Of a stretch of 44,245 nucleotides of DNA, positions 1-27,015 are shown piece by piece. How positions within the stretch are numbered: the first letter of the stretch is position 1; every line of letters starts with the position of its first letter. The notes below the pieces were generated by a model. That model ran no database searches and had not been told where the DNA came from. It worked only from the letters and a program-made list of their open reading frames with translations. The stretch comes from a virus, in IMG/VR virus record IMGVR_UViG_3300006789_000047, positions 1 to 44,245 of that record. The stretch is one strand, 5' to 3'. A program made the translations under genes and the position numbers.

Positions 1-126
1 AGTGCCATTGGCCTCGCTCCCCATCCCACCTTTAAGAAAGGAGGTTAATCAGATGTAAAATATAAATTCATTCTATTAATCTAATAAATATAAATTCCTA
101 TAATATAAATACCAAGGAGGTAAATA
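1..126 (+). other. Left-edge segment with start-stop element
   Basis: No complete gene is visible. Frame 1 is open from the window edge to a TAA at 46-48 and frame 2 to a TAA at 56-58, so either could be the tail of a gene cut by the edge. A perfect AAGGAGG at 38-44 precedes an ATG at 53 that is followed at once by TAA, a start-stop pair. CCTTT and AAAGG around 29-41 could fold and mask this ribosome site. The rest is AT-rich, with TATAAAT-like runs at 89-111. Confidence 0.25.
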
Positions 127-177
127 GTGGAATTACTTTTCTTCTCTTATTGCGTTTACAGGATTGTGGCATCCTGA
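127..177 (+). CDS. 16-residue hydrophobic micropeptide (copy 1)
   Basis: A GTG start lies 6 bases after a strong CAAGGAGG (113-120). The predicted peptide is MELLFFSYCVYRIVAS. It matters because a second ORF at 1603-1653 has the same length, the same CAAGGAGG and the same 6-base spacer, and a similar peptide (8 of 16 identical without gaps, both ending YRI, two aliphatic residues, then S). The codons differ widely between the two copies, which argues for selection on the peptide rather than recent DNA duplication. A terminator follows 5 bases after the stop. Function is unknown. It is hydrophobic enough to be a membrane micropeptide, or it could be a leader peptide. Confidence 0.5.
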   Translation: MELLFFSYCVYRIVAS

Positions 178-182
178 CACGC

Positions 183-208
183 GCCCCGCGTAAGCGGGGC
201 TTTTTTTT
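183..208 (+). terminator. Rho-independent terminator
   Basis: A perfect 7-bp GC stem (183-189 with 194-200) closed by a GTAA tetraloop of the GNRA type, followed by eight T residues. It ends the transcript carrying the first micropeptide. Confidence 0.9.
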
Positions 209-228
209 CTGCTATATTAGTATAAAAC

Positions 229-276
229 AAACTGATTTACATAACGGTGGCCGGTCACTGAAATGTAAAAGAGTTT
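229..276. promoter_or_regulatory. 48-bp nested palindrome, copy 1 (putative operator)
   Basis: Outer arms of 13 bases, AAACTGATTTACA (229-241) and TGTAAAAGAGTTT (264-276), are inverted with 10 of 13 positions complementary. A second palindrome, TGGCCGGTCA (248-257), lies exactly at the dyad centre. Two further copies of identical total length occur at 924-971 and 1679-1726, each upstream of a promoter for a small gene. A two-fold symmetric operator for a dimeric or tetrameric regulator is the likeliest reading. Confidence 0.65.
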
Positions 277-292
277 CGCGTTGTGAATAAGA

Positions 293-321
293 TTGCATTG
301 TGAAGATGATCATTATAGACT
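293..321 (+). promoter_or_regulatory. Sigma70-like promoter, cassette 1
   Basis: TTGCAT (293-298), a 17-base spacer and TAGACT (316-321), aligned with the clearer promoters of cassettes 2 and 3. TATAGA at 314-319 is an alternative -10 with a 15-base spacer. It lies 17 bases after the palindrome. Confidence 0.45.
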
Positions 322-330
322 ACCTTTAAT

Positions 331-364
331 CAACGCCCCCAGTAAGGGCAAGGAAGGACTAGCA
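331..364 (+). promoter_or_regulatory. 5' leader hairpin plus GGACTAGCA element, cassette 1
   Basis: GCCC (335-338) pairs with GGGC (346-349). GGACTAGCA (356-364) follows, two bases before the ATG at 367. The same element, preceded by a hairpin, occurs at 1071-1080 and 1811-1820, right before the other two cassette genes. It may act in translation initiation, since no classic Shine-Dalgarno is close to these starts. Confidence 0.5.
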
Positions 365-366
365 TT

Positions 367-786
367 ATGGATAGCACGTTTACATTCGAAGATCAGGCAA
401 TCAACCTCAACGAGCATTGCACTGTCTATGCACACGGCAAGTTGTATTATGAGGCGGATTGGCAGGATGGCACAACCAACACTCATTATGGCAAGATCAA
501 TTGCAGGATGGAGTTGCAAGGCGTTGAGATTGATTATGTTGACGTTACCGCTTACTCAATCTATGCAACTGCAACTGAGGACACGTTGCACACTCACATT
601 GCAGAGGTTGACTGTCACGCTCACAACAACGGCTCAACCAAAGAGTTTACTCAATGGATTGAGAGAGAGTTGAAGAAAATATTTGATGCGTCTAACGTGT
701 TAATGGATCATGCAGAGAGTCAGGGCGCACCCGATCCACAAGATCACGCGTTGAGTGCTTGTGGTGACGATCCACACGGCGATTAA
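367..786 (+). CDS. Hypothetical early protein, cassette 1
   Basis: A 139-residue protein that I do not recognise. It has no signal peptide or membrane segment, is rich in acidic residues and histidine, and ends in a His/Asp-rich tail (PDPQDHALSACGDDPHGD). The start is fixed by the GGACTAGCA leader shared with the other two cassette genes. It has its own promoter and terminator, with the 48-bp palindrome upstream. Base composition is visibly richer in G and C than the structural genes downstream. By position and gene style it may be an early host-takeover protein; that is inference only. Confidence 0.65.
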   Translation: MDSTFTFEDQAINLNEHCTVYAHGKLYYEADWQDGTTNTHYGKINCRMELQGVEIDYVDVTAYSIYATATEDTLHTHIAEVDCHAHNNGSTKEFTQWIERELKKIFDASNVLMDHAESQGAPDPQDHALSACGDDPHGD

Positions 787-818
787 CTTTTCTCAACGTT
801 CACCAAGGAGGAGGGGAA

Positions 819-847
819 AGGGGCTGCGAAAGCGGCCCCTTTTTTTT
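819..847 (+). terminator. Rho-independent terminator, cassette 1
   Basis: Stem AGGGGC (819-824) with GCCCCT (835-840), extended inward by TGC/GCG to a GAAA tetraloop, then a run of T to 847. Just upstream, CAAGGAGG (804-811) is an orphan copy of the micropeptide ribosome site with no ORF after it. Confidence 0.9.
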
Positions 848-888
848 GCGTAATAAATAATTATGTGAATAACTTTTGCTTGACTTCT

Positions 889-923
889 GCGGCGTGAGCC
901 GCGCCGCTGCGGCGCAGCCGCGC
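889..923. repeat. Pair of GC-rich hairpins
   Basis: GCGGC and GCCGC (889-893, 898-902) enclose a GTGA tetraloop. GCTGC and GCAGC (906-910, 914-918) form a second hairpin. An alternative pairing, GCGCCG (901-906) with CGGCGC (910-915), overlaps both. The block abuts palindrome copy 2. There is no T-run, so a simple terminator is unlikely. Confidence 0.5.
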
Positions 924-971
924 AAACTGATTTACAATTCGGTGGCCGGTCATCCTTTTGTAAAAGAGTTT
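924..971. promoter_or_regulatory. 48-bp nested palindrome, copy 2 (putative operator)
   Basis: Outer arms at 924-936 and 959-971 are identical in sequence to those of copy 1. The central TGGCCGGTCA (943-952) again sits exactly on the dyad, while the bases between arms and centre differ. That pattern suggests selection on the arms and the core. Confidence 0.65.
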
Positions 972-1012
972 GACGGTGTGAATAACCTATTTAAAAAAAC
1001 TTTAAAAAAACC

Positions 1013-1041
1013 TTGCGCTGATTAGGTAATTGAACTAATCT
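1013..1041 (+). promoter_or_regulatory. Sigma70-like promoter, cassette 2
   Basis: TTGCGC (1013-1018), 17-base spacer, TAATCT (1036-1041). An A-tract-rich stretch (about 990-1011), possibly an UP-like element, lies between the palindrome and the -35 box. Confidence 0.6.
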
Positions 1042-1046
1042 TTTTT

Positions 1047-1080
1047 CAGTCGCCCCCGTAAGGCGACACTGGGACTAGCA
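1047..1080 (+). promoter_or_regulatory. 5' leader hairpin plus GGGACTAGCA element, cassette 2
   Basis: CAG and TCGCC (1047-1054) pair with GGCGA (1062-1066) and CTG (1069-1071), with a CA bulge. The stem would lie at the very 5' end of the transcript. GGGACTAGCA (1071-1080) then leads to the ATG at 1083. Confidence 0.55.
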
Positions 1081-1082
1081 AA

Positions 1083-1508
1083 ATGAATAACAAGATCACA
1101 AAAGAAACGAAGGTTGAAATCCATTGTGGGCGTCAAATCAAGATCGTTCACCAAAACAATCAAGGTTGCATATATAGAGACAACAAAACCGTTTCTATCG
1201 ATCAACCTCCCGCCACTATTACTAGGGCGATGATTAATGAGATGGTAAAACAGGAAAAACGCTATCAGCAATTACGCAAGGAATACCAAGAAAACACGAT
1301 TGACAAGTCAACATTGTGGATGGCGTTTTGGGTAACTGTTTGCTCGATAGCTGCAGGGTTTTGCCTATCCTACTATTACAACCAACAAGGTTGGGAAAAT
1401 TACTATTGGGCGGGATTTTTGACCGTGGGCGTCATTGTTCCGATTCTGATTCTAGCTACCGTAAAGGTAACAGACTGGCTAAACTGCAGGACAGTCTCCA
1501 AACGGTAG
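1083..1508 (+). CDS. Small two-TM membrane protein, cassette 2
   Basis: A 141-residue protein of unknown family. Residues 1-75 are soluble and basic, with a short charged coiled-coil-like stretch (KQEKRYQQLRKEYQEN). Two hydrophobic segments follow at about 78-98 and 107-129, separated by a short polar loop with NQQGWENYYW. The end is short and basic. The layout fits an inner-membrane protein with both ends on the same side. Start chosen by the GGGACTAGCA leader. It forms a single-gene unit with its own promoter and terminator, so it is probably made early. It could alter the host envelope or exclude other phages; neither is shown. Confidence 0.65.
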   Translation: MNNKITKETKVEIHCGRQIKIVHQNNQGCIYRDNKTVSIDQPPATITRAMINEMVKQEKRYQQLRKEYQENTIDKSTLWMAFWVTVCSIAAGFCLSYYYNQQGWENYYWAGFLTVGVIVPILILATVKVTDWLNCRTVSKR

Positions 1509-1522
1509 CCTAGTCCCCACAT

Positions 1523-1551
1523 AAGCGGGAGGCGCAATGCCTCCCGCTTTT
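1523..1551 (+). terminator. Rho-independent terminator, cassette 2
   Basis: A 9-bp perfect stem (1525-1533 with 1539-1547), loop GCAAT, flanked by AA/TT that extends it, followed by a short T run. Confidence 0.85.
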
Positions 1552-1602
1552 AATTATAAATACGCACGATTTAAATACGTGCGCGTATCAAGGAGGTGCG
1601 AA

Positions 1603-1653
1603 ATGGTGTTAATGTTTTTATTATATATATATTATAGAATTATAGTTAGTTGA
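1603..1653 (+). CDS. 16-residue hydrophobic micropeptide (copy 2)
   Basis: The ATG lies 6 bases after CAAGGAGG (1589-1596). The peptide is MVLMFLLYIYYRIIVS, a paralogue of the one at 127-177 with the same length and ribosome site and a similar C-terminal YRI motif. A hairpin with a bulge (1560-1568 with 1578-1588) lies directly before the ribosome site and could control it. Palindrome copy 3 follows 26 bases after the stop. Like copy 1, it precedes a 48-bp palindrome. Function unknown. Confidence 0.5.
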   Translation: MVLMFLLYIYYRIIVS

Positions 1654-1678
1654 AGTAATGGAGTTTACTGGAAACGGT

Positions 1679-1726
1679 AAACTCTTTTACAATGCCCTGA
1701 CCGGTCACGCGTTTGTAAAACAGTTT
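1679..1726. promoter_or_regulatory. 48-bp nested palindrome, copy 3 (putative operator)
   Basis: Arms AAACTCTTTTACA (1679-1691) and TGTAAAACAGTTT (1714-1726) are complementary at 12 of 13 positions, the most symmetric of the three copies. The central TGACCGGTCA (1698-1707) is a perfect 10-bp palindrome on the dyad. Confidence 0.7.
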
Positions 1727-1748
1727 AGAAATGTTAGTAAGTAGGGTG

Positions 1749-1777
1749 TTGACTTTTTATTAAAAATGGACTAAATT
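1749..1777 (+). promoter_or_regulatory. Sigma70-like promoter, cassette 3
   Basis: TTGACT (1749-1754), 17-base spacer, TAAATT (1772-1777). It is the closest of the three to consensus and lies 23 bases after the palindrome. Confidence 0.65.
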
Positions 1778-1782
1778 TTTTT

Positions 1783-1820
1783 CAGTGCGAGACACTAACA
1801 AAAAAACAAAGGGACTAGCA
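1783..1820 (+). promoter_or_regulatory. 5' leader hairpin plus GGGACTAGCA element, cassette 3
   Basis: AGTG (1784-1787) pairs with CACT (1793-1796) near the expected transcript start. GGGACTAGCA (1811-1820) then precedes the ATG at 1824. The shared element shows that an in-frame GTG at 1785 is part of the leader, not the start. Confidence 0.5.
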
Positions 1821-1823
1821 AAA

Positions 1824-2126
1824 ATGAAAATCGACGAACTAAAAAACGGTGCAATCTACGCAATTATCGACGCACCGACTAAAGAGCAAACAATGGTGCG
1901 CGTTACTAAAGAGCGCGTTTTAGATAGTAACAATCGACGACTTCCAATAGTCAAAACATATCAGGGAAAAGAGTTGATTATCCCACAACGCAAAATCCGC
2001 CTTGCCGATGGCAATGAGGTAGAACAATTCATCTTGGCAATCCGCCTTGTGAAACAAAACGAACAAAACGCTGCCGCGCAAGTAATGGACGCAATGCACG
2101 AGGCAATTAACACCATCGACATTTAA
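1824..2126 (+). CDS. Hypothetical early protein, cassette 3
   Basis: A 100-residue soluble protein starting MKIDELKNGAIYAI. The frame is open further upstream to a GTG at 1785, but the GGGACTAGCAAAAATG context matches the other two cassettes, so the ATG at 1824 is preferred. The N-terminal half looks beta-rich and the C-terminal part (EQNAAAQVMDAMHEAINTI) helical. No known family or catalytic motif is recognised. It is a single-gene unit with its own promoter and terminator, probably an early small protein of unknown role. Confidence 0.65.
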   Translation: MKIDELKNGAIYAIIDAPTKEQTMVRVTKERVLDSNNRRLPIVKTYQGKELIIPQRKIRLADGNEVEQFILAIRLVKQNEQNAAAQVMDAMHEAINTIDI

Positions 2127-2153
2127 TATAAATTGAAAGGGGTTTTATACCTT

Positions 2154-2180
2154 CCCCGCCTAGCGCGGGGATTTTTTTTT
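2154..2180 (+). terminator. Rho-independent terminator, cassette 3
   Basis: CCCCGC (2154-2159) pairs with GCGGGG (2165-2170) around loop CTAGC, followed by A and nine T residues. Confidence 0.9.
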
Positions 2181-2182
2181 GC

Positions 2183-2428
2183 TTTATACTTTGCACCCCT
2201 AGGGGTATTTATGAAATAGTAGGAGTTTTATACTTTTCGTACTGTCGGGGGGGGTGTTTTTTCAATCTCCACAGGGTTTTGCGAATCTCCGTTTTTGCAA
2301 AGGTCGAAAAAATCGGCGGGGTGTCCCACAAAAAGGTGAAAATGAGACATAAAGACACTTTCGCGGCTAGAAAAAGCTGAAAAAGCAGGAGTTTTTGTTG
2401 GCATGGCTTATGCTGTTTATAAAAAGTT
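2183..2428. other. Intergenic region before hsp20
   Basis: No convincing gene. It holds a perfect 12-bp palindrome, ACCCCTAGGGGT (2195-2206), and a run of eight or more G near 2246. Phrases resembling GTTTTATAC occur both here (about 2225) and in the tail of the previous cassette (about 2142). It marks the change from the GC-richer cassettes to the AT-rich body of the window. Confidence 0.4.
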
Positions 2429-2818
2429 ATGTATAATTTAAGATTAAATTCTAACCTGTTAAATTTCGCTAATGAAATGGAAAAAGCTTTTTTTAATGAC
2501 GACTATTCTTCTAAGTTTTTGCCTCATTGGAGAATGAGTAATAGAAGACCTATTGAAAAAAAAGAGTCTGAAAATGGCTATACTTATTATATTCCTCTTC
2601 CGGGGTATAAAAAAGAGGATGTAAAAGCTTCGGTGCTAAAAGGAACTATCTTGGAAATTGTCGCTAAAAAGAAGGATAGAGAAGATTTGGTATATAATAT
2701 GGAGCTTCCTGATAATATTAATCTTAGCATAATCGAAAGTAAATTGGAGGATGGACTTTTGGAGCTAAATGTACCTAAAGATGACGAAAGTAAGGTAATA
2801 AATATTGATATTAATTAG
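2429..2818 (+). CDS. hsp20: Small heat shock protein (Hsp20/alpha-crystallin)
   Basis: A 129-residue ATP-independent chaperone of the Hsp20 family, a normal length for phage members. An N-terminal arm of about 40 residues precedes the alpha-crystallin domain (about 41-127). Visible hallmarks are the strand segment ending in YIPLPGYKKEDVKAS, and ELPDNINLS followed by a conserved stretch with DGLLELNVPK near 108-117. The C-terminal IxI-like tail is short (INIDIN). Members hold unfolding proteins in soluble oligomers, and T4-like marine phages often carry one, perhaps to help capsid assembly or buffer host stress. No strong ribosome site is seen before the ATG. Confidence 0.85.
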   Translation: MYNLRLNSNLLNFANEMEKAFFNDDYSSKFLPHWRMSNRRPIEKKESENGYTYYIPLPGYKKEDVKASVLKGTILEIVAKKKDREDLVYNMELPDNINLSIIESKLEDGLLELNVPKDDESKVINIDIN

Positions 2819-2847
2819 AATCTAGGGCTTCTATTTGAATGAAATGA

Positions 2848-2855
2848 GTGTATAT
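2848..2855 (+). promoter_or_regulatory. GTGTATAT motif (putative late promoter)
   Basis: One of a dozen GTGTA plus A/T-rich boxes found just before genes in this window. This one is 34 bases before the start at 2882. Confidence 0.45.
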
Positions 2856-2881
2856 TAGTTGTATAAGGGATTATTTAAATT

Positions 2882-3292
2882 ATGAAAGAAACTGATGCAC
2901 ACAACGTTCCCGTCATGGTTGATAAAACTAACCTAGACGTAGATAAGTATAAACACCTCCTAAAACTTTCATCGCAAAAAGAAGAAGTAGAGGTTCAGGC
3001 TCAAAAACCTTCTATTCATGTTCCTGTTGAGCAAGAGGGCATTAAGTTAATGTCACGAATTCAGGAAATCCATTGCCCTCATTGTGGGGAGCATGTAGGC
3101 CGTTGGACATTTTTCCATAGATTGGCTGCTAATGAAGAGTTGGACGAAACTAAAGCCTCAGAATTACTCGAAGAGAAAAAGGTATTAGAAGATCGACTAA
3201 ACAGTATCGATGAAGTTCTTGCGAGTCAAGATACTGTAGAAAAGTATAAAGAGGTATATGAAGACGTAAAGGAAGATAATAAAGATAAATAA
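2882..3292 (+). CDS. CPHC-containing hypothetical protein
   Basis: A 136-residue soluble protein. The middle holds one CPHCGEHVGRW motif (about 65-75), half of a typical zinc ribbon, so metal binding may need a dimer or a partner. The C-terminal 50 residues are strongly charged and probably coiled-coil (KASELLEEKKVLEDRL and onward). The N-terminal 45 residues look disordered. I do not recognise the family. It is the only gene between Hsp20 and the terminator at 3328, and has a GTGTATAT box upstream. A structural or regulatory binding role is possible but unproven. Confidence 0.6.
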   Translation: MKETDAHNVPVMVDKTNLDVDKYKHLLKLSSQKEEVEVQAQKPSIHVPVEQEGIKLMSRIQEIHCPHCGEHVGRWTFFHRLAANEELDETKASELLEEKKVLEDRLNSIDEVLASQDTVEKYKEVYEDVKEDNKDK

Positions 3293-3298
3293 TAATTA

Positions 3299-3306
3299 GT
3301 GTATAT
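3299..3306 (+). promoter_or_regulatory. GTGTATAT motif without an adjacent gene
   Basis: The same box as before other genes, but here it is followed after 22 bases by a terminator. It may start a short transcript, or be a chance or relic copy. Confidence 0.25.
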
Positions 3307-3327
3307 TTAGTTATCCTAAATCCCTAG

Positions 3328-3354
3328 CCCTGCTTTTATAAAGTGGGGTTTTTT
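3328..3354 (+). terminator. Rho-independent terminator
   Basis: A 9-bp stem with two G-T wobbles (3328-3336 with 3340-3348), loop TAT, then six T residues. It ends the hsp20 and CxxC gene unit. Confidence 0.7.
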
Positions 3355-3531
3355 GTCACTCACTAGTGAGCGGCTAAATAGTTTGTCGATCAAATATGCG
3401 TTATTATGATCGTCTATAGGATTATATGTGATCTAACTTAGATTCGGGGCTAGGAGTAAATAAGTAATAATCTAGAAAAAGCCACTAAGGAAAAAGAATA
3501 ACCTCTTGGTAAAGAAAAGAACTCTATAGAG
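3355..3531. other. Intergenic region with palindrome
   Basis: No gene seen. A perfect 12-bp palindrome, CTCACTAGTGAG, lies at 3359-3370, just after the terminator. The rest is AT-rich without clear promoter or repeat. Confidence 0.35.
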
Positions 3532-3810
3532 TTGCCCGTTGTATATTGTTGTATTTTTTTGTATATGAAAATCAATAAAGATACATCACAAAAATCTGGT
3601 AAACCAAATGGTGGTTGTATTTTGTTATATTGGTTTGTGCCCTTTACTTTTTTATTACTTTTTTTATTACTTAGATGTATACACGACCAGCCCCGATTTA
3701 AATCCCCGAAATCCACCCCGCCCGAAGCCGAATCGCTAAATCTACCCCGGCCCGAGGCCAAACCCCGAACCTGTACCGGCCCGAAGCCGGAACCATTTTT
3801 CACTAATTAA
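3532..3810 (+). CDS. Doubtful ORF: TM segment plus Pro-rich tail
   Basis: An open frame of 92 codons. If real, residues about 28-50 form one long hydrophobic segment (CILLYWFVPFTFLLLFLL) and the last 40 residues a Pro-rich tail with repeats of the form PxPEA or PKPEP. The tail is encoded by a GC-rich island (about 3685-3795) quite unlike its AT-rich surroundings, and an antisense frame is also open over 3450-3803. No ribosome site is convincing. It could be a small membrane protein, or a non-coding repeat island that happens to stay open. Confidence 0.25.
   Translation: MPVVYCCIFLYMKINKDTSQKSGKPNGGCILLYWFVPFTFLLLFLLLRCIHDQPRFKSPKSTPPEAESLNLPRPEAKPRTCTGPKPEPFFTN
3685..3800. repeat. GC-rich CCCCG/GCCCGAAGCC repeat island
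   Basis: CCCCG recurs at short, uneven spacing, and GCCCGAAGCC or close variants (GCCCGAGGCC) occur three times. The last two form hairpins: GGCC-CGA-GGCC, and CCGGC-CCGAA-GCCGG. The final hairpin is followed by a short T run, so a terminator role is possible. The island differs sharply in composition from both flanks. Confidence 0.5.
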
Positions 3811-3843
3811 AAAAAATAATCACAGACCTCAGCCCCAATTATG

Positions 3844-3851
3844 GTGTAATT
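3844..3851 (+). promoter_or_regulatory. GTGTAATT motif (putative late promoter)
   Basis: 28 bases before the phoH start at 3872. Confidence 0.4.
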
Positions 3852-3871
3852 ATAACTAGGTAACGATAGAT

Positions 3872-4609
3872 ATGGCTGCGAAGAAAAAAGACACTTCACC
3901 GAAAGTCCATCAAAGAGACAAGCTCTCAAGCTCTTTAAAAATTAAAGAATTAGATTGGACCGAAAAACAAAAAACATTCATAAACCAATCCTTACATAAA
4001 GATACTAAGATATCTTTTGTGGATGGCCCTGCTGGATGTGGAAAATCACTATTAGCGGTTTATTGCGCTTTAAGACTTCTAAACGAAAAGAAGGTTTCTG
4101 ATATCGTTTATATTAGGTCTGCGGTGGAAAGTTCCGATAATAAAATGGGGCATCTTCCCGGTGACGCTAATGAAAAGCTTCACTTCTTTAACTTGCCATT
4201 TATGGAAAAGTTAGACGAATTACTCCCAGTAACTCAAGTTAAAAAATTAGAATCTGATGAAAGAGTTTCTATATATCCAGTTAACTTTTCTAGAGGTATG
4301 AGTTGGAATGCTAAATGTATTATCTTTGATGAAGTTCAAAATAGTACAGAGAGAGAAATAGTAACAGTACTAACTAGATTAGGAATGTTTAGTAGATGCT
4401 TTGTTTTGGCTGACCCTATGCAAACAGATTTGCACCCAATTAAAGGTGGGGCATTCGAAAAGATGTATAAAATATTCTCAGATCAAGAAAGTTCTGATTT
4501 TGGTATAAAAACTTTCGAATTTGATGAAGATGATATTATGAGATCAGAATTAGTTAAATTCCTTGTTAAAAAATTCAAGGAGCTTAAAGAGCCCACGGAT
4601 AATCCTTAA
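3872..4609 (+). CDS. phoH: PhoH-like P-loop ATPase
   Basis: A 245-residue cytoplasmic NTPase of the PhoH family, very common in marine phages. Walker A is GPAGCGKS (52-59) and Walker B IIFDEVQ (150-156). The family segment before it (WNAKCIIFDE) and the ADPMQTDL motif (sensor-like, about 180-187) are present. Its length matches phage PhoH proteins that have only the ATPase core. The exact role is unsettled; it is often linked to RNA metabolism or phosphate stress, but phage copies are not reliably phosphate-regulated. Its stop nearly abuts the stop of the convergent minus-strand gene at 4612. Confidence 0.9.
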   Translation: MAAKKKDTSPKVHQRDKLSSSLKIKELDWTEKQKTFINQSLHKDTKISFVDGPAGCGKSLLAVYCALRLLNEKKVSDIVYIRSAVESSDNKMGHLPGDANEKLHFFNLPFMEKLDELLPVTQVKKLESDERVSIYPVNFSRGMSWNAKCIIFDEVQNSTEREIVTVLTRLGMFSRCFVLADPMQTDLHPIKGGAFEKMYKIFSDQESSDFGIKTFEFDEDDIMRSELVKFLVKKFKELKEPTDNP

Positions 4610-4611
4610 AA

Positions 4612-5511
4612 CTATAAAAGTTTCCCTTTAATAGGTTCCCATCCAGATATATCCATAAAGCTGTCTTGTTCCGGCGTATAGCTGGAATCTTCATAACCGC
4701 CAAATATGACTTGATTAGCTTGATCGTAATGACTAGCACCGGTTCCACCATCCCTTAACCAGTTACCCACATTATTACCTATAGATTGCAAAGCCATGAT
4801 GGAATCAGCTTCAATATGGATACGACCATGTAAACTATCGTGAGGCCACAGACCAAGCTCACTTACATAATCAATTGGATTATTATATATTCGATCATCT
4901 AAGCTGGGGAAACACATCGTAGCAAATCCGGGTGAATGATGCCACAAGGGAACAGTATATCTTCCGGTAGCTCTTTCAAATTGCCTGTATCTTTTGTACA
5001 AAATATAAAAATAAGGAAAGTCTTTATGAGCATTAACAGTTCTCGAAATTTGATCAAATGTCATATTACTTAATATGTCATCCGCGTCTATTCGAGTTAC
5101 GGAAACCGGCTTGTCGGCATATTTCGCTTTAAACTCTTCTGAGAAAAGAAATTTACATTTTAATTGATAAGGGTTATATGGAGTTTCTTCTTTAGTAGTG
5201 CTAAACCCCGGACCTCTATGGATAAGCTTTATATAATCAGGAAATTCAAACTGCTCTATGATAGGGAGATACTTTTGTCCATAAGAAACGTATACTTCAA
5301 ACGTATCTTGTTGTGTGTTCGGGGTTTGGAATTGAGTCTCATAAAATCTGCAACATTTTTTTACGTAATAATCTATAGTGTCATACAATCTATCTTCTTC
5401 AGATTCATAACGTATATAAGTAGAACGAAGGATTTCGTCTAACCTTGACCCATTCCATCCCGGCCTAATTGAAAGGTCTTCAGCTAAACTGGTAAAAAAT
5501 ACATGATGCAT
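4612..5511 (-). CDS. Glycosyltransferase-like protein (rhamnosyltransferase-like), copy 1
   Basis: A 299-residue protein, last gene of the minus-strand block. The N-terminus MHHVFFTSLAEDLS matches the next gene (MHHVFITPLAWDLS), so the two are paralogues. The motif VTRIDADDILSN (138-149) is like the Asp-rich DxDD site of GT-A-type transferases annotated as putative rhamnosyltransferases, where the acidic residues bind the metal and sugar nucleotide. The preceding FEVYVSYGQKYLP fits the family core. It has no signal peptide or membrane span, so it acts in the cytoplasm on an unknown acceptor. Family placement is by motif only. Confidence 0.55.
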   Translation of the reverse strand: MHHVFFTSLAEDLSIRPGWNGSRLDEILRSTYIRYESEEDRLYDTIDYYVKKCCRFYETQFQTPNTQQDTFEVYVSYGQKYLPIIEQFEFPDYIKLIHRGPGFSTTKEETPYNPYQLKCKFLFSEEFKAKYADKPVSVTRIDADDILSNMTFDQISRTVNAHKDFPYFYILYKRYRQFERATGRYTVPLWHHSPGFATMCFPSLDDRIYNNPIDYVSELGLWPHDSLHGRIHIEADSIMALQSIGNNVGNWLRDGGTGASHYDQANQVIFGGYEDSSYTPEQDSFMDISGWEPIKGKLL

Positions 5512-5519
5512 AATATTTC

Positions 5520-6284
5520 TTACACTTTTATAAAGTTAGAAGAATTAAAGTAGTTATCAATTTTTTCAGTCCATTTAGTATTACCTAAATTGCTCCCAAG
5601 CGTCTGTATAAAGGAGCATCTATACTCTTCGTAATGAACACACCTTGAAGGAAGTGTTGCGTGGAAGGCCAGTAAGTCTAAGCCTTTAATAAATTCATTT
5701 TCACTGGTGGTTAGACCCTCGGAAAAAGGATTTAAAATTAAGGTAACATTGCCAGAACTCCAATTATCTAAAGTAGTTATTTCCTCAGTGTATTCTTCGC
5801 TCCATCTTAAGTACTGTCTGAAGGTTTTGTATATTATTAAATAGTAAGGATCATCGTGAGACCTTTGATGTTGAGAAATTATATTAAAAATGTTATTTGA
5901 AAAAAAATCATCTGCGTCAGTTCTCGATATGGATATAGGGACTCCTTCATATTTTTTTTTAAAATCTTCATCAAAGTAATGAATGCAACTATCAGAGAAT
6001 ACTTGTTCACTAGAGCATTCGATTAATTTAGCCCACTTCGGAAAATAAAACATATCCAAAATACTTTTAAACCTTTTGCTGTATAATAAAAATACTTCAA
6101 ACGTATCTTTAGACTTTTGTTCTTCGTAAAATTTAGAAGTGTTATTAACCCAATAGTTTACTATATCGAAAATTCGATCTTCATATAGTTCGTAATTTTT
6201 ATTATAAATATTTTTTAATAAATCTTGCTCCGAATGATATTCTGACAAGTCCCAAGCTAAAGGAGTTATAAATACATGATGCAT
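5520..6284 (-). CDS. Glycosyltransferase-like protein (rhamnosyltransferase-like), copy 2
   Basis: A 254-residue paralogue of the neighbouring gene. Shared features are the MHHVFIT start, the FEVFLLYSKRF strand, and ISISRTDADDFFSN (117-130) with the DADD acidic cluster. The C-terminal third differs and is shorter than in copy 1, which may give another acceptor specificity. Its ATG shares one base with the stop of the methyltransferase-like gene upstream (TAATG), so the pair is probably translationally coupled. Likely a cytoplasmic sugar transferase; substrate unknown. Confidence 0.55.
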   Translation of the reverse strand: MHHVFITPLAWDLSEYHSEQDLLKNIYNKNYELYEDRIFDIVNYWVNNTSKFYEEQKSKDTFEVFLLYSKRFKSILDMFYFPKWAKLIECSSEQVFSDSCIHYFDEDFKKKYEGVPISISRTDADDFFSNNIFNIISQHQRSHDDPYYLIIYKTFRQYLRWSEEYTEEITTLDNWSSGNVTLILNPFSEGLTTSENEFIKGLDLLAFHATLPSRCVHYEEYRCSFIQTLGSNLGNTKWTEKIDNYFNSSNFIKV

Positions 6285-7063
6285 TACGTTGGGTCGTTTT
6301 TACTACTTTCTATTGCGGCGTATAAGTCTTTATATGTCCAACTTTTAGAATCCTTTAAAGTGAATAGGTATAAATTTTGAACGCTCTTTTCTATATTTAG
6401 AAAATTTTCTACAATATTATACTGAGGTCTCCAATTATGATCTTCCCCCGGCTTTGGGCCGAAATCATGAATTAATATTTTTGTATTAGGGGAATTGAAA
6501 TGACACCATTTTATGCAATTTAAAGCTGTAGCCGCCCGATACCTTCCATCTACTAAAATCAAATCTACCTTCTTATCTACTTCATAGATAAAAGATTGAT
6601 ATTTAATATGGCTTAAACCCTTTGAATTATTACAGTGCCCCCAATCATACTCTAGAGCTTCGCCCACTTCACCTCTTTCGGAATCTTCATTTATGTAGGT
6701 TGATTTAGAGTCTGTATCGTTAATTGGAACATGATACATCTCAAGTTTTTCTAATACTTCTTCTCCGAAGTCTACACCTATACAAAACTTAGTTCTTTCT
6801 ACCCACTCTTTATCATGCTCTATAGAATATATCTTTTTAACTCTATTTTTTTCTTCCGTCACATATGGGGATACATTTGCTAAGGGGTTGATATCATTTA
6901 AATGTAATACGTCGTTTAATTTGTATCTTATATTTCCACAAGCCATATAAGTACTGCCGCCTCCTCCAAACTCTAGATAAGTTTCACAGCTATTTAAGCA
7001 CTCACTAAAAAAAATGAGCTCATCTTCTTCCATAACTGGATGAACTATTGGATGCATTGACAA
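6284..7063 (-). CDS. Class I SAM methyltransferase-like protein
   Basis: A 259-residue protein with a Rossmann-type layout. Motif I is YLEFGGGGSTYMA (29-41), a glycine-rich SAM loop. YSIEHDKEW (79-87) ends the second strand with an acidic residue that would hold the ribose. DLILVDGRYR (167-176) is the motif-IV region, followed by ILIHDF. This arrangement resembles methyltransferases encoded among sugar-modifying genes. Its place beside two glycosyltransferase-like genes suggests it methylates a sugar, but the acceptor cannot be read from the sequence. Confidence 0.6.
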   Translation of the reverse strand: MSMHPIVHPVMEEDELIFFSECLNSCETYLEFGGGGSTYMACGNIRYKLNDVLHLNDINPLANVSPYVTEEKNRVKKIYSIEHDKEWVERTKFCIGVDFGEEVLEKLEMYHVPINDTDSKSTYINEDSERGEVGEALEYDWGHCNNSKGLSHIKYQSFIYEVDKKVDLILVDGRYRAATALNCIKWCHFNSPNTKILIHDFGPKPGEDHNWRPQYNIVENFLNIEKSVQNLYLFTLKDSKSWTYKDLYAAIESSKNDPT

Positions 7064-7064
7064 A

Positions 7065-7253
7065 TTAAGAGTCTTCTTCGAAGAGGCGTGACCTGTTTAC
7101 TACCTTTAAGCACTCGTAAGCTAAGTTATTAATTTTTTGAAAATCTATAGAGTCTTCAGAATCTGATTTGCAGTGCTTAAAAGAAACGTCAAGAATTTTT
7201 TCGATTTTTTGCTTTAACTTTTCTTGTTCTTTTTTTTGGCTTGAGTTCTTCAT
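7065..7253 (-). CDS. Small charged hypothetical protein
   Basis: 62 residues, lysine- and glutamate-rich at the N-terminus (KKEQEKLKQKIEK, probably helical), ending in an acidic EEDS. The start overlaps the 3' end of the metallopeptidase gene by 65 bases in another frame, which is long, so a later start is possible. Its stop lies one base from the next gene. No known family. Confidence 0.4.
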   Translation of the reverse strand: MKNSSQKKEQEKLKQKIEKILDVSFKHCKSDSEDSIDFQKINNLAYECLKVVNRSRLFEEDS

Positions 7254-7521
7254 TTTGCCTCCAACCTTGTTGGTATAAAAATTTGCTTACCGCATTCGCA
7301 AATTGAGTTACGTTAACTTCTGTCTTGTCCCAAAAAAATGCGTGGGTAAATTCATGTATGCAAGTATTAAGTAAACCTTTTTTCCCTCTAGGGTTTATAT
7401 ACATTTTAGGTTCCTTTTCATTTGGATTGTAACAAATCCCTTCGCATTCACGAGGTTTTTTCAGAAAAACAGAATATTCTACTTCTTGAGAATTTTTAAA
7501 CTTAAAGTCCGGTTTATCCAT
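7189..7521 (-). CDS. HExxH metallopeptidase-like protein
   Basis: 110 residues. HEFTH (56-60) is a zincin active-site motif: two zinc-binding histidines and the catalytic glutamate. It lies in a helix preceded by GLLNTCI, as in SprT-like and related small phage metallopeptidases. The third zinc ligand is not obvious. The last 20 residues are very basic (KPKKRTRKVKAKNRKNS), suggesting nucleic-acid contact. It is the first gene of the minus-strand block and diverges from the zinc-ribbon gene at 7587 across 65 bases. A protease or a structural zinc protein are both possible. Confidence 0.55.
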   Translation of the reverse strand: MDKPDFKFKNSQEVEYSVFLKKPRECEGICYNPNEKEPKMYINPRGKKGLLNTCIHEFTHAFFWDKTEVNVTQFANAVSKFLYQQGWRQNEELKPKKRTRKVKAKNRKNS

Positions 7522-7572
7522 ATTTTTTCCCTTACTTTCCGTCCACTTTTTTTTGATTTTTTGTAGTTTTTA

Positions 7573-7580
7573 CTGTATAT
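7573..7580 (+). promoter_or_regulatory. CTGTATAT motif (variant putative late promoter)
   Basis: 14 bases before the start at 7587. CTGTATATATG reads CATATATACAG on the other strand, so the shared divergent region may serve both directions. Confidence 0.35.
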
Positions 7581-7586
7581 ATGTAA

Positions 7587-8078
7587 ATGCTTAAAATTTA
7601 TTGCAAAAGTTGTGGCTCTCCAAGTGGGTATACACTTGAAAAGCCTAAGTTTTGCCAAGGATGTGGACAACCTTTTGGGGAATTAACTTCTTCCGCTAAA
7701 ACCTCTATACAAAAGCCCGTTAGAAAGTTTGAAAAAAGAAAAGTAGAGGTAGAAGTTGAAGAAGAGACGTTTATAGAAGAAAGTGAAGAGAGAGTTCCCG
7801 ACTTAGATCGTCTTGACGTGGAAATACAAGCTAAAGGACCAAGAACTCAAACTTTGCAGCAGCTTTCTGAAGCGGAAGTTAGCGAGTATGATCATTCGTT
7901 AAATTTACCCAGAGATGAAAGGTCTTCTAAGGAAATATTTGAAGAGTATCAAATGGAAGCGGGAAATAAAAATCCCAACAGAGACGCCACTTTTGCAAAA
8001 AGTAACACGGCTTCAAGTTCAGGCTCCCCCCCCAGAAGGTCTCCCAAAAAAAGAGGTAGACCTAAAAAAAATAAATGA
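7587..8078 (+). CDS. Zinc-ribbon protein with AT-hook-like tail
   Basis: 163 residues. An N-terminal zinc ribbon (C6, C9, C23, C26; CKSCG and CQGCG knuckles) is followed by a long acidic, probably disordered middle and a basic end, SPKKRGRPKKNK, whose RGRP core is an AT-hook that binds the minor groove of AT-rich DNA. It overlaps the sigma-like gene by ATGA, so the two are likely made together. A DNA-binding accessory to transcription or packaging is plausible from this pairing but not shown. Confidence 0.6.
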   Translation: MLKIYCKSCGSPSGYTLEKPKFCQGCGQPFGELTSSAKTSIQKPVRKFEKRKVEVEVEEETFIEESEERVPDLDRLDVEIQAKGPRTQTLQQLSEAEVSEYDHSLNLPRDERSSKEIFEEYQMEAGNKNPNRDATFAKSNTASSSGSPPRRSPKKRGRPKKNK

Positions 8079-8776
8079 ACAAAAGGGGAAGAAAGAGCAA
8101 AGATCACAAAGAGTTTGTTGATGTAATCGATCTCATAAATACCGAAATCTATAAGAGGAGAAATAGATGGAATCTCGGTATTTTAGCTTGGATGGATTTT
8201 GAAGACGTGGCTCAGATTATAAGGTTCCATATTTTTAAAAAGTGGCACTTGTATAATCAGAAGAGAAAACTCGCGCCTTGGGTAAATAGGATAATAACTA
8301 ATCAAATAAAAAATTTGATTAGAAATAATTATTCTAATTTTGTTAAACCCTGCGTAAAATGTGCTGCCGCAGAAGGAGACGACGATTGCGCTATATATAA
8401 AAAACAGTGCAATGACTGTCCTTTATTTAAAAATTGGGAAAGGAATAAGAAAAGCGCGTTTGAAACAAAAATGCCAGTTCCCCTAGAGCATTACTCTCAA
8501 GAATTATATGTTGCGTCTTCAAACGTTTCAATTGATATAGAAAAAGCTGCTAGTAATCTTCACGAAAGAATGCGTGAAATCCTTAAGCCAAATGAATGGA
8601 TCGCTTATAAATTTTTATATATAGAGAACAAAGACGAAGAAGAAGTCGCCTCTTTAATGGGATTTAAAACAACTGAAAAAAATCGAAGCCCCGGATATAA
8701 ACAAATAAAGAACTTAAAAAAATCAATCGTCAAGAAAGCTAAACTAGCTATTGAAAATGATGAGGTGGATATATGA
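8075..8776 (+). CDS. Phage sigma-like factor with Cys-rich insert
   Basis: 233 residues. Residues about 31-86 match sigma70 region 2: DFEDVAQIIRFHIFKKW, then APWVNRIITNQIKNLIRNN, the -10-binding helices of ECF-type factors. Residues about 152-225 look like region 4 (NEWIAYKFLYIENKDEEEVASLMG, then a basic helix). Between them lies C93, C96, C105, C112, C115, a zinc-finger-like insert unusual for sigma factors. Position between a DNA-binding protein and the packaging genes, with ATGA overlaps on both sides, fits a late-gene sigma analogous in role to T4 gp55. It probably directs host RNA polymerase to late promoters. Confidence 0.65.
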   Translation: MNKRGRKSKDHKEFVDVIDLINTEIYKRRNRWNLGILAWMDFEDVAQIIRFHIFKKWHLYNQKRKLAPWVNRIITNQIKNLIRNNYSNFVKPCVKCAAAEGDDDCAIYKKQCNDCPLFKNWERNKKSAFETKMPVPLEHYSQELYVASSNVSIDIEKAASNLHERMREILKPNEWIAYKFLYIENKDEEEVASLMGFKTTEKNRSPGYKQIKNLKKSIVKKAKLAIENDEVDI

Positions 8777-9870
8777 GCGATTCAATCGAGCTAACTGAAG
8801 AGCAAAAAGAATTAATACTAAACGAGTGGAATGGAAGACCAAACAGTCCGCCCGGAATAAAAGAATTAACGTCTTTAGCTTTCCCCGCTATAGAAGAAAA
8901 GTATAAAGATGGAAGAAGTAAGTACGGAAGAGCCGTTAAGACATTTCTAGCGACTAGAAAAATAAAAGCTCACGGTGCTCACGAATACCAAGGAAAAATA
9001 ATAGAATTAACTGAAGATCATAAACAGTTTATTGATAACAACGCTTCAATGATGAACGCTCAAGAAATGGCTAGAGTATTATTTGCCGATAATACATTAT
9101 CTAATCTTAGTTCTGAGGCTAGAGTAGTAAACGAATATATAAAAACTTTAAATAACACCCCCGTATTTTCAGACCCACAAGAAGTCCCTACTGGGATATA
9201 TCAACCACCGAAAGCTTTCGAAGAATGTCTGGAGAAAATACATAAATATGTTCCTATGGGAATTAAAAATGAGAAGCTCACCCCAAAACAAAAAAAGGAT
9301 GTTACGAGTCTCATAGGTTACTTAAGCACTCATAGATTCTCCCATCAAGTCAACAACCTACAAACAGAGCAAGATAGAGAATTGTTTGAAAGCAGCTTTG
9401 TCAGGTACACTTACGACAAGGGGGACTTATCTCAAGAAGAGGTGGACCAATATGTTATTTTGTCTACAGAAGTTATTATCGCTTCCAACATTCAAGCCCG
9501 AATAGAGCATTTACAAAATTTATTGGAAAACTCGGCAAACGATACTGAGGGAAGAAGAATTTCAATGTCGTTAGTTCAAGCTATTGGAACGGCTCAAACA
9601 GAGTATAATCAATGCGTTGGAAGACAGCAGAAATTATTGGGGGATTTAAAGGAAAAAAGAAGCGACAAATTAAAAAAAGAAATAAAAGAAAACGCTAGTA
9701 TTTTAAACTTAGTACAAATGTGGAAGGAGGAAGAATCAAGGAAAAGTATGATACAACTAGCAGAAATAAGAAAAAAGGCCGTAAAAGAAGAAGTGGAAAG
9801 ACTATCGACTTTAGATGAAGTAAAAGCTAGAATCCTCGGAATTAGTGAAGACGAGGTGTTAAATGGCTAA
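8773..9870 (+). CDS. Candidate terminase small subunit
   Basis: 365 residues, mostly helical. Residues 1-75 and 76-125 each begin with an LTEEQKE/LTEDHKQ phrase and look like tandem helix-turn-helix units, while residues 230-365 are long charged helices (oligomerisation). It lies two genes upstream of TerL in the same overlapping unit, the usual place for the DNA-recognition subunit. It is longer than most small terminases (often 100-200 residues). I assign it by context and helical repeats, not by a recognised motif; another DNA-binding protein is possible. Confidence 0.4.
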   Translation: MSDSIELTEEQKELILNEWNGRPNSPPGIKELTSLAFPAIEEKYKDGRSKYGRAVKTFLATRKIKAHGAHEYQGKIIELTEDHKQFIDNNASMMNAQEMARVLFADNTLSNLSSEARVVNEYIKTLNNTPVFSDPQEVPTGIYQPPKAFEECLEKIHKYVPMGIKNEKLTPKQKKDVTSLIGYLSTHRFSHQVNNLQTEQDRELFESSFVRYTYDKGDLSQEEVDQYVILSTEVIIASNIQARIEHLQNLLENSANDTEGRRISMSLVQAIGTAQTEYNQCVGRQQKLLGDLKEKRSDKLKKEIKENASILNLVQMWKEEESRKSMIQLAEIRKKAVKEEVERLSTLDEVKARILGISEDEVLNG

Positions 9871-25836: not shown

Positions 25837-26967
25837 ATGAAGTTAAAATTAAAACACACCCCGGAGCAGGTTGAGCTTATTAAAGCTATTGGCTCCAAGA
25901 ACAAATCTGTTTCTCAAGAAGCTCAGGAAGCATTTGCAGCTTTTATCGGACCTATTGTTCAAAAAGTTATTCAACAAGCCTCTACGGCTGGAATGATTTA
26001 CGCTGACGCAGAATACGATGAGGATGATTCTCCTTCGTATCCGTTAGATTTGTACTATAACGAGGGTGAAGGCTACGTTAACGTATGGTCCCAAACTATG
26101 GCTGGTGGCCTTCCGACCTCATTGGTCGAAGGTGTTAAAGAGATGAAAATCTCCACCTACCGTTTGGACAGTGCTGTTAGCTTCCTTAAGAAATACGCTC
26201 GTAAGTCCCGTTTAGACGTTGTGAGCAAGGCTCTTGAGAGAATGTCCCAAGAGGTACTTGTTAAGCAAGAGAGAAACGCTTGGGCGGTCATCTTAACAGC
26301 TTTAGCTAAGGCTAGTACTTCTCACGTTAACGACGCTGGTAATCCTACGGATAGCCACATCGTTCAAGGTGATATTAGTGATGGGCTTACTCTTGAGAAC
26401 TTAAATAGCTTAATGATTCTCATGAGAAGAATTAATCAATCGTGGGCTGGTGGTACTGCCTCTAACCATGATTCGTTTGGCGTGACTGACTTATTTGTTA
26501 GTCCCGAGCAAAAGGGTAAGATCAGAAGAATGGCTTATAACCCTCTTTCTACTGATAGTAAACCGCAAGGCACACAAGCTTTGCCTGATGGTGTTAAAGA
26601 AGATATTTATCGTGCCGCTGGTGCGAGTGAAATCTTCGGTATCAGAATTACTGATATGACCGAATTAGGTGTTGGACGTAAGTATAACAAATTGTTCGAA
26701 GAAATGGCCTCTGGAATTAATCTTTCCGGCGGTAGTTCTTTTGACGACTCCTCTAGTCACGAATTGGCCATCGGCCTTGACTTGTCTAAGGAAGCTTTCG
26801 TTCGCGCAGTTGCCCGTCAAGCTGACAGTGGTGGTACGTTTAGCGTTCTTCCTGACGATCAGTTTGTCGCTCGTTCTGACAAGACCGGTTTTTACGGATT
26901 CTTGGAAGAGGGCCGCGTTTGTATCGATGCTCGTGCCATTTCCGGTATCGTATTTGGTACTGCTTAA
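25837..26967 (+). CDS. Major capsid protein
   Basis: 376 residues, a usual size for the HK97-like fold. The start is helical (residues 1-55). A long spine-helix-like region lies around 115-160 (SAVSFLKKYARKSRLDVVSK and onward). It ends with domains rich in short strands. It uses codons such as CGT, CTT and AAG far more than the neighbouring AT-rich genes, the mark of a highly expressed gene. AGGAG lies 11 bases before the ATG, and a strong terminator follows. Several hundred copies would form the shell. Confidence 0.85.
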   Translation: MKLKLKHTPEQVELIKAIGSKNKSVSQEAQEAFAAFIGPIVQKVIQQASTAGMIYADAEYDEDDSPSYPLDLYYNEGEGYVNVWSQTMAGGLPTSLVEGVKEMKISTYRLDSAVSFLKKYARKSRLDVVSKALERMSQEVLVKQERNAWAVILTALAKASTSHVNDAGNPTDSHIVQGDISDGLTLENLNSLMILMRRINQSWAGGTASNHDSFGVTDLFVSPEQKGKIRRMAYNPLSTDSKPQGTQALPDGVKEDIYRAAGASEIFGIRITDMTELGVGRKYNKLFEEMASGINLSGGSSFDDSSSHELAIGLDLSKEAFVRAVARQADSGGTFSVLPDDQFVARSDKTGFYGFLEEGRVCIDARAISGIVFGTA

Positions 26968-26990
26968 GTCACGAAATAAAAAAATTCAAG

Positions 26991-27015
26991 CCCCGCCATT
27001 TGGCGGGGTTTTTTT
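26991..27015 (+). terminator. Rho-independent terminator after the capsid gene
   Basis: A perfect stem CCCCGCCA/TGGCGGGG (26991-26998, 27001-27008) around TT, followed by seven T residues. Confidence 0.92.

Follow-up and report, generated by a model that had tools for sequence, protein, structure and literature searches.

Three nested 48-bp palindromes before small orphan genes of an uncultured phage: candidate operator parts of a repeated promoter cassette

The stretch analysed here (the window) is the whole 44,245-base IMG/VR virus record IMGVR_UViG_3300006789_000047, which comes from an uncultured phage and is probably a fragment of its genome. It carries three nested palindromes of 48 bp, each followed by a promoter region and a small orphan open reading frame (ORF). 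On balance we lean towards reading these palindromes as the upstream control region of an early-promoter operator cassette, which is placed before small accessory genes, has a mobility like that of the promoter early stem-loops (PeSLs) known from T4-type phages, and is read box by box. The three elements are the following:

229..276, palindrome 1: arms 229-241 and 264-276, core 248-257, 18 of 24 pairs self-complementary
924..971, palindrome 2: arms 924-936 and 959-971, core 943-952, 17 of 24 pairs
1679..1726, palindrome 3: arms 1679-1691 and 1714-1726, core 1698-1707, 19 of 24 pairs

The three nested palindromes are genuine and exceed what chance would give. As the first-pass annotation of the sequence had described, all of them are exactly 48 bp long with shared arms and a core at the dyad, and the bases between arm and core differ, the 6-bp linkers being identical at 3/12, 2/12 and 6/12 positions in the three direct comparisons. 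The geometry stays constant while the linkers vary: the arms, TGTAAAWSAGTTT, are always separated by exactly 22 bp. The core, TGRCCGGTCA, occurs at three places in the 44,245 bases (one of them matching on both strands) against a chance mean of 0.01, and the arm pattern is confined to the same three elements in the window, with 0 matches in 100 shuffles. The description of 13-base inverted arms and of an inner palindrome had to be softened. The arms are present but imperfect, with 11, 11 and 12 of 13 pairs in elements 1, 2 and 3, and the inner palindrome lies at the dyad in all of them but is perfect only in element 3 (4, 4 and 5 of 5 pairs). Window 48-mers with at least 17 of 24 pairs start at four positions, namely the three elements and 39808 (17 pairs, a tie with element 2), while in 200 Markov simulations their number averaged 0.32 and never exceeded 2.

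The first-pass annotation had proposed to look for further copies in relatives, and would have counted their absence as a refutation. The palindrome in the form seen in the window was indeed absent there, but a diverged box was present. The arm pattern and the core pattern gave 0 matches each in viral_contigs, and a relaxed arm pattern matched 10 stretches; tblastn with 16 window proteins found nothing in the DNA compared. One core-pattern match in genome_contigs (Scalindua) sits inside a 551-aa ORF and was rejected as chance. A PhoH scan led to nine related loci, none of which carries the palindrome of the window. One of them, L010, is part of a 116-kb contig and encodes a PhoH 61% identical to that of the window; in the small-gene array upstream of this PhoH there are strong promoters, TTGACA-N17-TATATT, several of which are preceded by AGTTATTCACA-N-TGTGAATA pairs. 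When viral contigs were scanned for inverted box pairs at the DNA level only, 56 stretches were obtained. Nine of these belong to this clade and are spread over seven contigs, with three stretches on the L010 contig and a single one on each of the contigs of L027, L029, L035, L040, L044 and L052. The latter six all carry relatives of the PhoH, the sigma factor and the terminase, with the box pair 1.4-5.1 kb upstream of PhoH. Since L027 and L035, as well as L029 and L044, are near-identical by eye, the independent cases are fewer than seven, and L035 and L044 were left out of the box, phasing and breakpoint counts as near copies. The other 47 of the 56 stretches were dropped from the box counts; their kinship to the clade is not established and many look origin-like by eye.

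From 37 distinct contexts (34 from the early regions of five related contigs and 3 from the window) a box consensus of 12-13 bp, TGTGRATAASTT(T), was derived, outside of which the information is low. The sites had been chosen by their first eight bases, thus only the later positions count as an independent finding. At up to two mismatches to the box, the five related contigs contain 37 distinct sense and 15 antisense boxes. TTGAC was found at 16/17 bp from 14/37 sense boxes versus 2/15 antisense boxes, and at 25-28 bp from 9/37 versus 1/15; since tandem boxes share a promoter, the 14 and the 9 do not represent separate promoters. Behind 11 sense boxes a -10 hexamer (at least 5/6 matching) was detected at 38-40 bp, and no antisense box has one within 22-60 bp. 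Wherever TTGAC stands at 17 (7 boxes), a passing -10 follows at 40. This phasing places several boxes directly upstream of the -35, frequently as tandem boxes at intervals of 9-11 bp; where boxes are paired, the inverted one is further up.

The earlier proposal of an operator family in front of early genes is supported by the repetition, by the fixed geometry and, for the corresponding locus of the relatives, by the phasing of boxes to promoters, although the genes are early only presumably. The proposal of a single symmetric regulator is weakened, as the half-sites of the relatives are single, tandem or inverted pairs, spaced mostly 14-15 bp rather than 22, and hold a fixed position to the -35. 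Since the arrangement of the half-sites varies while their place relative to the -35 does not, a box-by-box reading is preferred. The reading unit would be one box of about 12-13 bp; two boxes head to head would form the palindrome, and a third one on the same strand would lie between palindrome and promoter. A sequence-specific protein of the phage or of the host would occupy the boxes, probably one per subunit, and the promoter would go up or down; the fixed distance and direction to the -35 in the relatives suggest that RNA polymerase is contacted or interfered with. In the window phage the palindrome boxes would have diverged to TGTAAAWSAGTTT, fixed 22 bp apart, with TGRCCGGTCA as an extra symmetric site at the dyad; so constant an arrangement suggests that a complex forms co-operatively over about 48 bp. 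From the sequence resemblance we infer that the arms and the boxes share ancestry. Through the shared boxes scattered small genes may answer to one signal, and the cassettes would be among the seams where gene modules are exchanged.

In the window three units were recognised, with their promoters and ORFs on the + strand and all with the same layout: a terminator-like hairpin, the palindrome, the promoter region, a conserved leader ending in GGACTAGCA followed by 2-3 bases and ATG, and the ORF. The window starts near unit 1, so that any earlier units would be cut off.

183..208, +: intrinsic terminator upstream of unit 1, GCCCCGCG-TAAG-CGGGGC region and T8
282..290, +: box TGTGAATAA (reverse complement TTATTCACA); the right arm of palindrome 1 starts 18 bp before it
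293..326, +: weak candidate promoter of unit 1, TTGCAT at 293, N17, TAGACT at 316, read from the sequence, outside the consensus-scan list
367..786, +: orphan ORF 1, 139 aa
819..847, +: terminator-like hairpin after ORF 1, AGGGGCTGC-GAAA-GCGGCCCCT and a T run, found by eye, unlisted by the scan
864..885, +: exact relative-type box TGTGAATAACTTT (box 864-876), TTGACT at +16, then a GC-rich inverted repeat
977..985, +: box TGTGAATAA; the right arm of palindrome 2 starts 18 bp before it
1013..1041, +: weak candidate promoter of unit 2, TTGCGC-N17-TAATCT, by reading, aligned with units 1 and 3, outside the scan list
1083..1508, +: orphan ORF 2, 141 aa, membrane-spanning by eye
1523..1553, +: terminator after ORF 2, from the terminator scan
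1732..1741, +: degenerate box TGTTAGTAAG, read from the sequence, 18 bp from the right-arm start of palindrome 3; the -35 follows 17 bp later
1749..1777, +: promoter of unit 3, TTGACT-N17-TAAATT, passing the consensus scan
1824..2126, +: orphan ORF 3, 100 aa (searched as 1821-2126)

The 18 bp from right-arm start to box are kept in all three units, and the layout at 864 equals that at 2298 of L010 (TGTGGATAACTTTAGCTTGAC). The sigma70-like promoters annotated 17, 42 and 23 bases after the palindromes fared unequally: only the third passes the consensus scan, which gave 16 matches in 4 kb versus 11.0 (sd 3.2) in shuffles, while TTGCAT at +17 and TTGCGC at +42 are weak, each matching at 3/6. In unit 1 TTGTGA at 298 with TACCTT at 321, 16 and 39 bp from the box start, is an alternative. 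The units share the palindrome, parts of the promoter region and the leader; the three ORFs appear mutually unrelated by eye, and no Pfam or PHROG family and no relative in the viral_contigs scans was found for any of them.

Several observations weigh against the operator cassette as we read it. The palindrome form with TTTACA and CCGG was found only in the window, and the agreement of its arms, TGTAAAWSAGTTT, with the box is modest, 9-10 of 12 positions: among random 13-mers, compared in three registers either way and on both strands, 3.3% reach at least 9 and 0.4% at least 10. The distance from the right arm to the proposed -35 varies (17, 42 and 23), and in unit 2 there are 36 bp from the box to the proposed -35, so that the 16/17 phasing is lost. 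In the relatives, none of the 7 boxes with TTGAC at 16 has a passing -10 (3 have TATCTT at 39 by eye, 4 do not), the box counts depend on each other through tandem boxes and related contigs, and of the nine relatives found by PhoH only L010 has box cassettes; L005, L006 and L007 show a single stray match per locus, and the others, some of them short upstream, show none. The total of TTATNCACA sites in the window is unremarkable (4 against 2.13 expected, with 16 of 100 shuffles reaching 4); what is unusual is their position, 3 of the 4 lying within the first 985 bases (282, 864 and 977). No box-binding protein came up among the contigs tested for three families, these being fragments with most genes unexamined. 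HTH_3 was absent from 10 contigs at E 0.1 (fragments; other helix-turn-helix families were not searched), and Pfam on 20 of the 139 ORFs of the 116-kb relative gave sigma-70 domains, a RuvB-like protein, a ligase and IMPDH, and no clear box-binding regulator.

The box itself suggests one candidate reader. The sequences TTATTCACA and TTATCCACA fit TTATNCACA, which we take to be the DnaA-box consensus, and this nine-base core fits the boxes of the relatives as well as the window boxes at 282, 864 and 977. Host DnaA might thus activate, repress or time the early genes, or the array might titrate DnaA off the host origin. All 13 TTATTCACA and 3 of the 4 TTATCCACA of the 116-kb relative are concentrated in its early region, at 18.5-30 kb, and the variable spacing and orientation are as monomer binding would predict. 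However, the conservation runs three bases beyond the 9-mer, TTATACACA and TTATGCACA are missing from the 116-kb contig, and the palindrome arms of the window (TGATTTACA and similar) depart from a DnaA box, which makes host DnaA an improbable reader. No DnaA C-terminal domain was found in 11 contigs (fragments), a result without bearing on the DnaA of the host. In the open-licence literature nothing beyond one baculovirus paper was found on DnaA boxes at phage early promoters.

The symmetry of the elements could also act in RNA, as an insulator, terminator or stability element forming a hairpin in read-through transcripts. When folded against 200 shuffles each, the three elements gave z of -4.3, -2.0 and -2.6, better than the shuffle mean, with 0, 13 and 3 shuffles folding as well, and each of them lies behind a terminator-like hairpin. 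No T run directly follows any of the three, though, they are located upstream of the promoter, and the single boxes of the relatives cannot form a hairpin. The mismatch at arm position 6 is kept in elements 1, 2 and 3 (G-G, G-G and C-C) instead of being compensated, which makes an RNA role less likely. Rfam gave no family above its cut-off at the three elements. We regard an RNA function as highly unlikely. Nested symmetry would also suit the site of a recombinase, att-like or invertase-like, and flipping slightly improves the fit of the outer arms of element 3 to those of elements 1 and 2 (25/26 versus 23/26); over all 48 bases it does so for element 1 (38 versus 34) but not for element 2 (37 versus 38). 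This explanation leaves the promoter phasing of the boxes in the relatives unaccounted for, and a tyrosine integrase (PF00589) was found in none of 10 records, which may be fragments (serine recombinases were not searched); it is extremely improbable.

Modules are rearranged between the relatives. In the comparison of G008 with G005 the promoter before a shared ORF is of the stem-loop type in one and of the box type in the other (types assigned by eye), and the following junction coincides with a box. In four comparisons of relatives, the distance to a box is at most 40 bp for 10 of 36 breakpoints, against 3.9 expected; the P of about 0.004 assumes independent ends, which related contigs and paired ends violate. 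These findings, together with a second stem-loop and -10 cassette (GGTAGGAC..GTCCCACC) shared by L010 and L011 and with apparently unrelated ORFs behind shared elements in the window, would also suit a PeSL-like shuffling cassette in which the palindrome and the promoter serve first as a homology handle for exchange of accessory genes and regulation comes second, with no dedicated regulator. We consider this priority unlikely, since a plain handle needs neither a dyad, nor an exact 22-bp arm spacing, nor boxes phased to the -35; besides, 26 of the 36 breakpoints are away from boxes, and the window's own units are covered by no relative.

By eye, the second cassette is very PeSL-like: a TATACT-like -10 comes after a stem-loop that reads GGTAGGAC-N-GTCCCACC or closely resembles it. 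Its copies are:

L010, about 2620-2670, 2863-2910, 4440-4490, 5481-5525, 5700-5745 and 7905-7950: GGTAGGAC/GTCCCACC cassettes, by eye
L011, about 1668-1710 and 4371-4412: GGTAGGAC/GTCCCACC cassettes, by eye

PeSLs are the nearest known kind to the operator cassette in layout and mobility. In T4-type phages, according to PMC4503421 and PMC3950731 (citing Arbiol 2010 and Comeau 2014), a repeated early promoter with an inverted repeat borders small orphan genes and is tied to module shuffling. The same combination is found here in the three window units, two of them with weak promoters, and in the arrays of the relatives, the promoters being presumably early. In difference from the PeSLs as described there, the inverted repeat here lies upstream of the promoter, is built of boxes and has no terminator tail, the terminators being separate hairpins. 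Since the stem-loop does not serve as terminator, we say that the cassette works like a PeSL rather than that it is one; the PeSL phages are T4-type, and the window phage may or may not be of that type. In the haloarchaeal virus HGTV-1, as PMC3950731 describes it, a motif with a TATA box-like region and an inverted repeat precedes most of the left-side ORFs; the likeness by description is a promoter-type region with an inverted repeat before many ORFs, and the difference is the archaeal promoter.

The stoperators of cluster A mycobacteriophages are 13 bp long and differ between relatives. PMC9283540 describes them as numerous genome-wide sites of one specificity, asymmetric in sequence and bound by a monomeric repressor. 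Repeated sites of one specificity are common to both systems as far as that description goes; here the sites are mostly directional (37 sense versus 15 antisense), they stand at promoters of the early region, inverted pairs occur, and no repressor or integrase was found in the families searched. A query for palindrome operators returned no paper, and within the open-licence literature searched the phage cassette appears to be undescribed so far.

One comparison of relatives bears on turnover of the operator part. The L011 promoter TTGACAAGACCCCTTTTGTGTGGTATATT is almost identical to TTGACAAACCCCTTTTTGTGTGGTATATT of L010, but stands behind a GC-rich palindrome, GCCGGGCTGCCCGGC, and in the 7.5 kb upstream of PhoH in L011 there is no box within two mismatches and one TTATCCACA core, at 1810. 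Thus the core promoter can persist while the upstream element changes, a claim with very few promoters behind it. Palindromes of the GCCGGGCTGCCCGGC type lie at 1250-1290, 2940-2960 and 4090-4130 of L011; two of them adjoin strong promoters, one of these between divergent promoters. It is possible, and is offered tentatively, that the early region of this clade is built from interchangeable cassettes in which the core promoter is kept and the operator part is swapped between phages, be it TTATTCACA boxes, TTTACA palindromes with a CCGG core or palindromes of the GCCGGGCTGCCCGGC type. In that case phages that have no recognisable integrase would bear, on mobile promoters, control codes that are immunity-like and specific to each phage.

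Downstream of the units follow Hsp20 and PhoH genes, then a sigma-70 region 2 protein and a terminase-like protein (Pfam/PHROG; the terminase by protein match). The best match of the terminase, at 23%, is in SPbeta-like phages, and one protein has baseplate-wedge-like PHROG matches, which bear on membership in the T4-type myoviruses. Against named phages, window positions 1-8000 gave no DNA match and the sigma factor no protein match. The word TATAAATA, which we take to be the T4-type late promoter word, occurs 13 times in the window as a raw count (at 104, 1555 and 11 other positions), 10 times on the + strand. At 26935-27012 a borderline Rfam match to isrJ (38.2 bits, cut-off 37) is probably due to chance. 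Among the relatives, L010 has a tmRNA gene at 8462-8889 and its contig two tRNA genes (ARAGORN; the tmRNA and one tRNA also by Rfam), and upstream of PhoH in L012 (1390-9300) there are ORFs resembling, by eye, sugar-nucleotide enzymes and several subtilase-like proteases.

It is known that small early genes of phages can provide host-takeover and anti-defence functions, and a repeated, recognisable control cassette gives a handle for finding them in phages that cannot be cultured. The cassette also provides a case in which the operator part diverges visibly while the promoter stays. If its reader were the host DnaA, early transcription of the phage would be tied to the replication cycle of the host.

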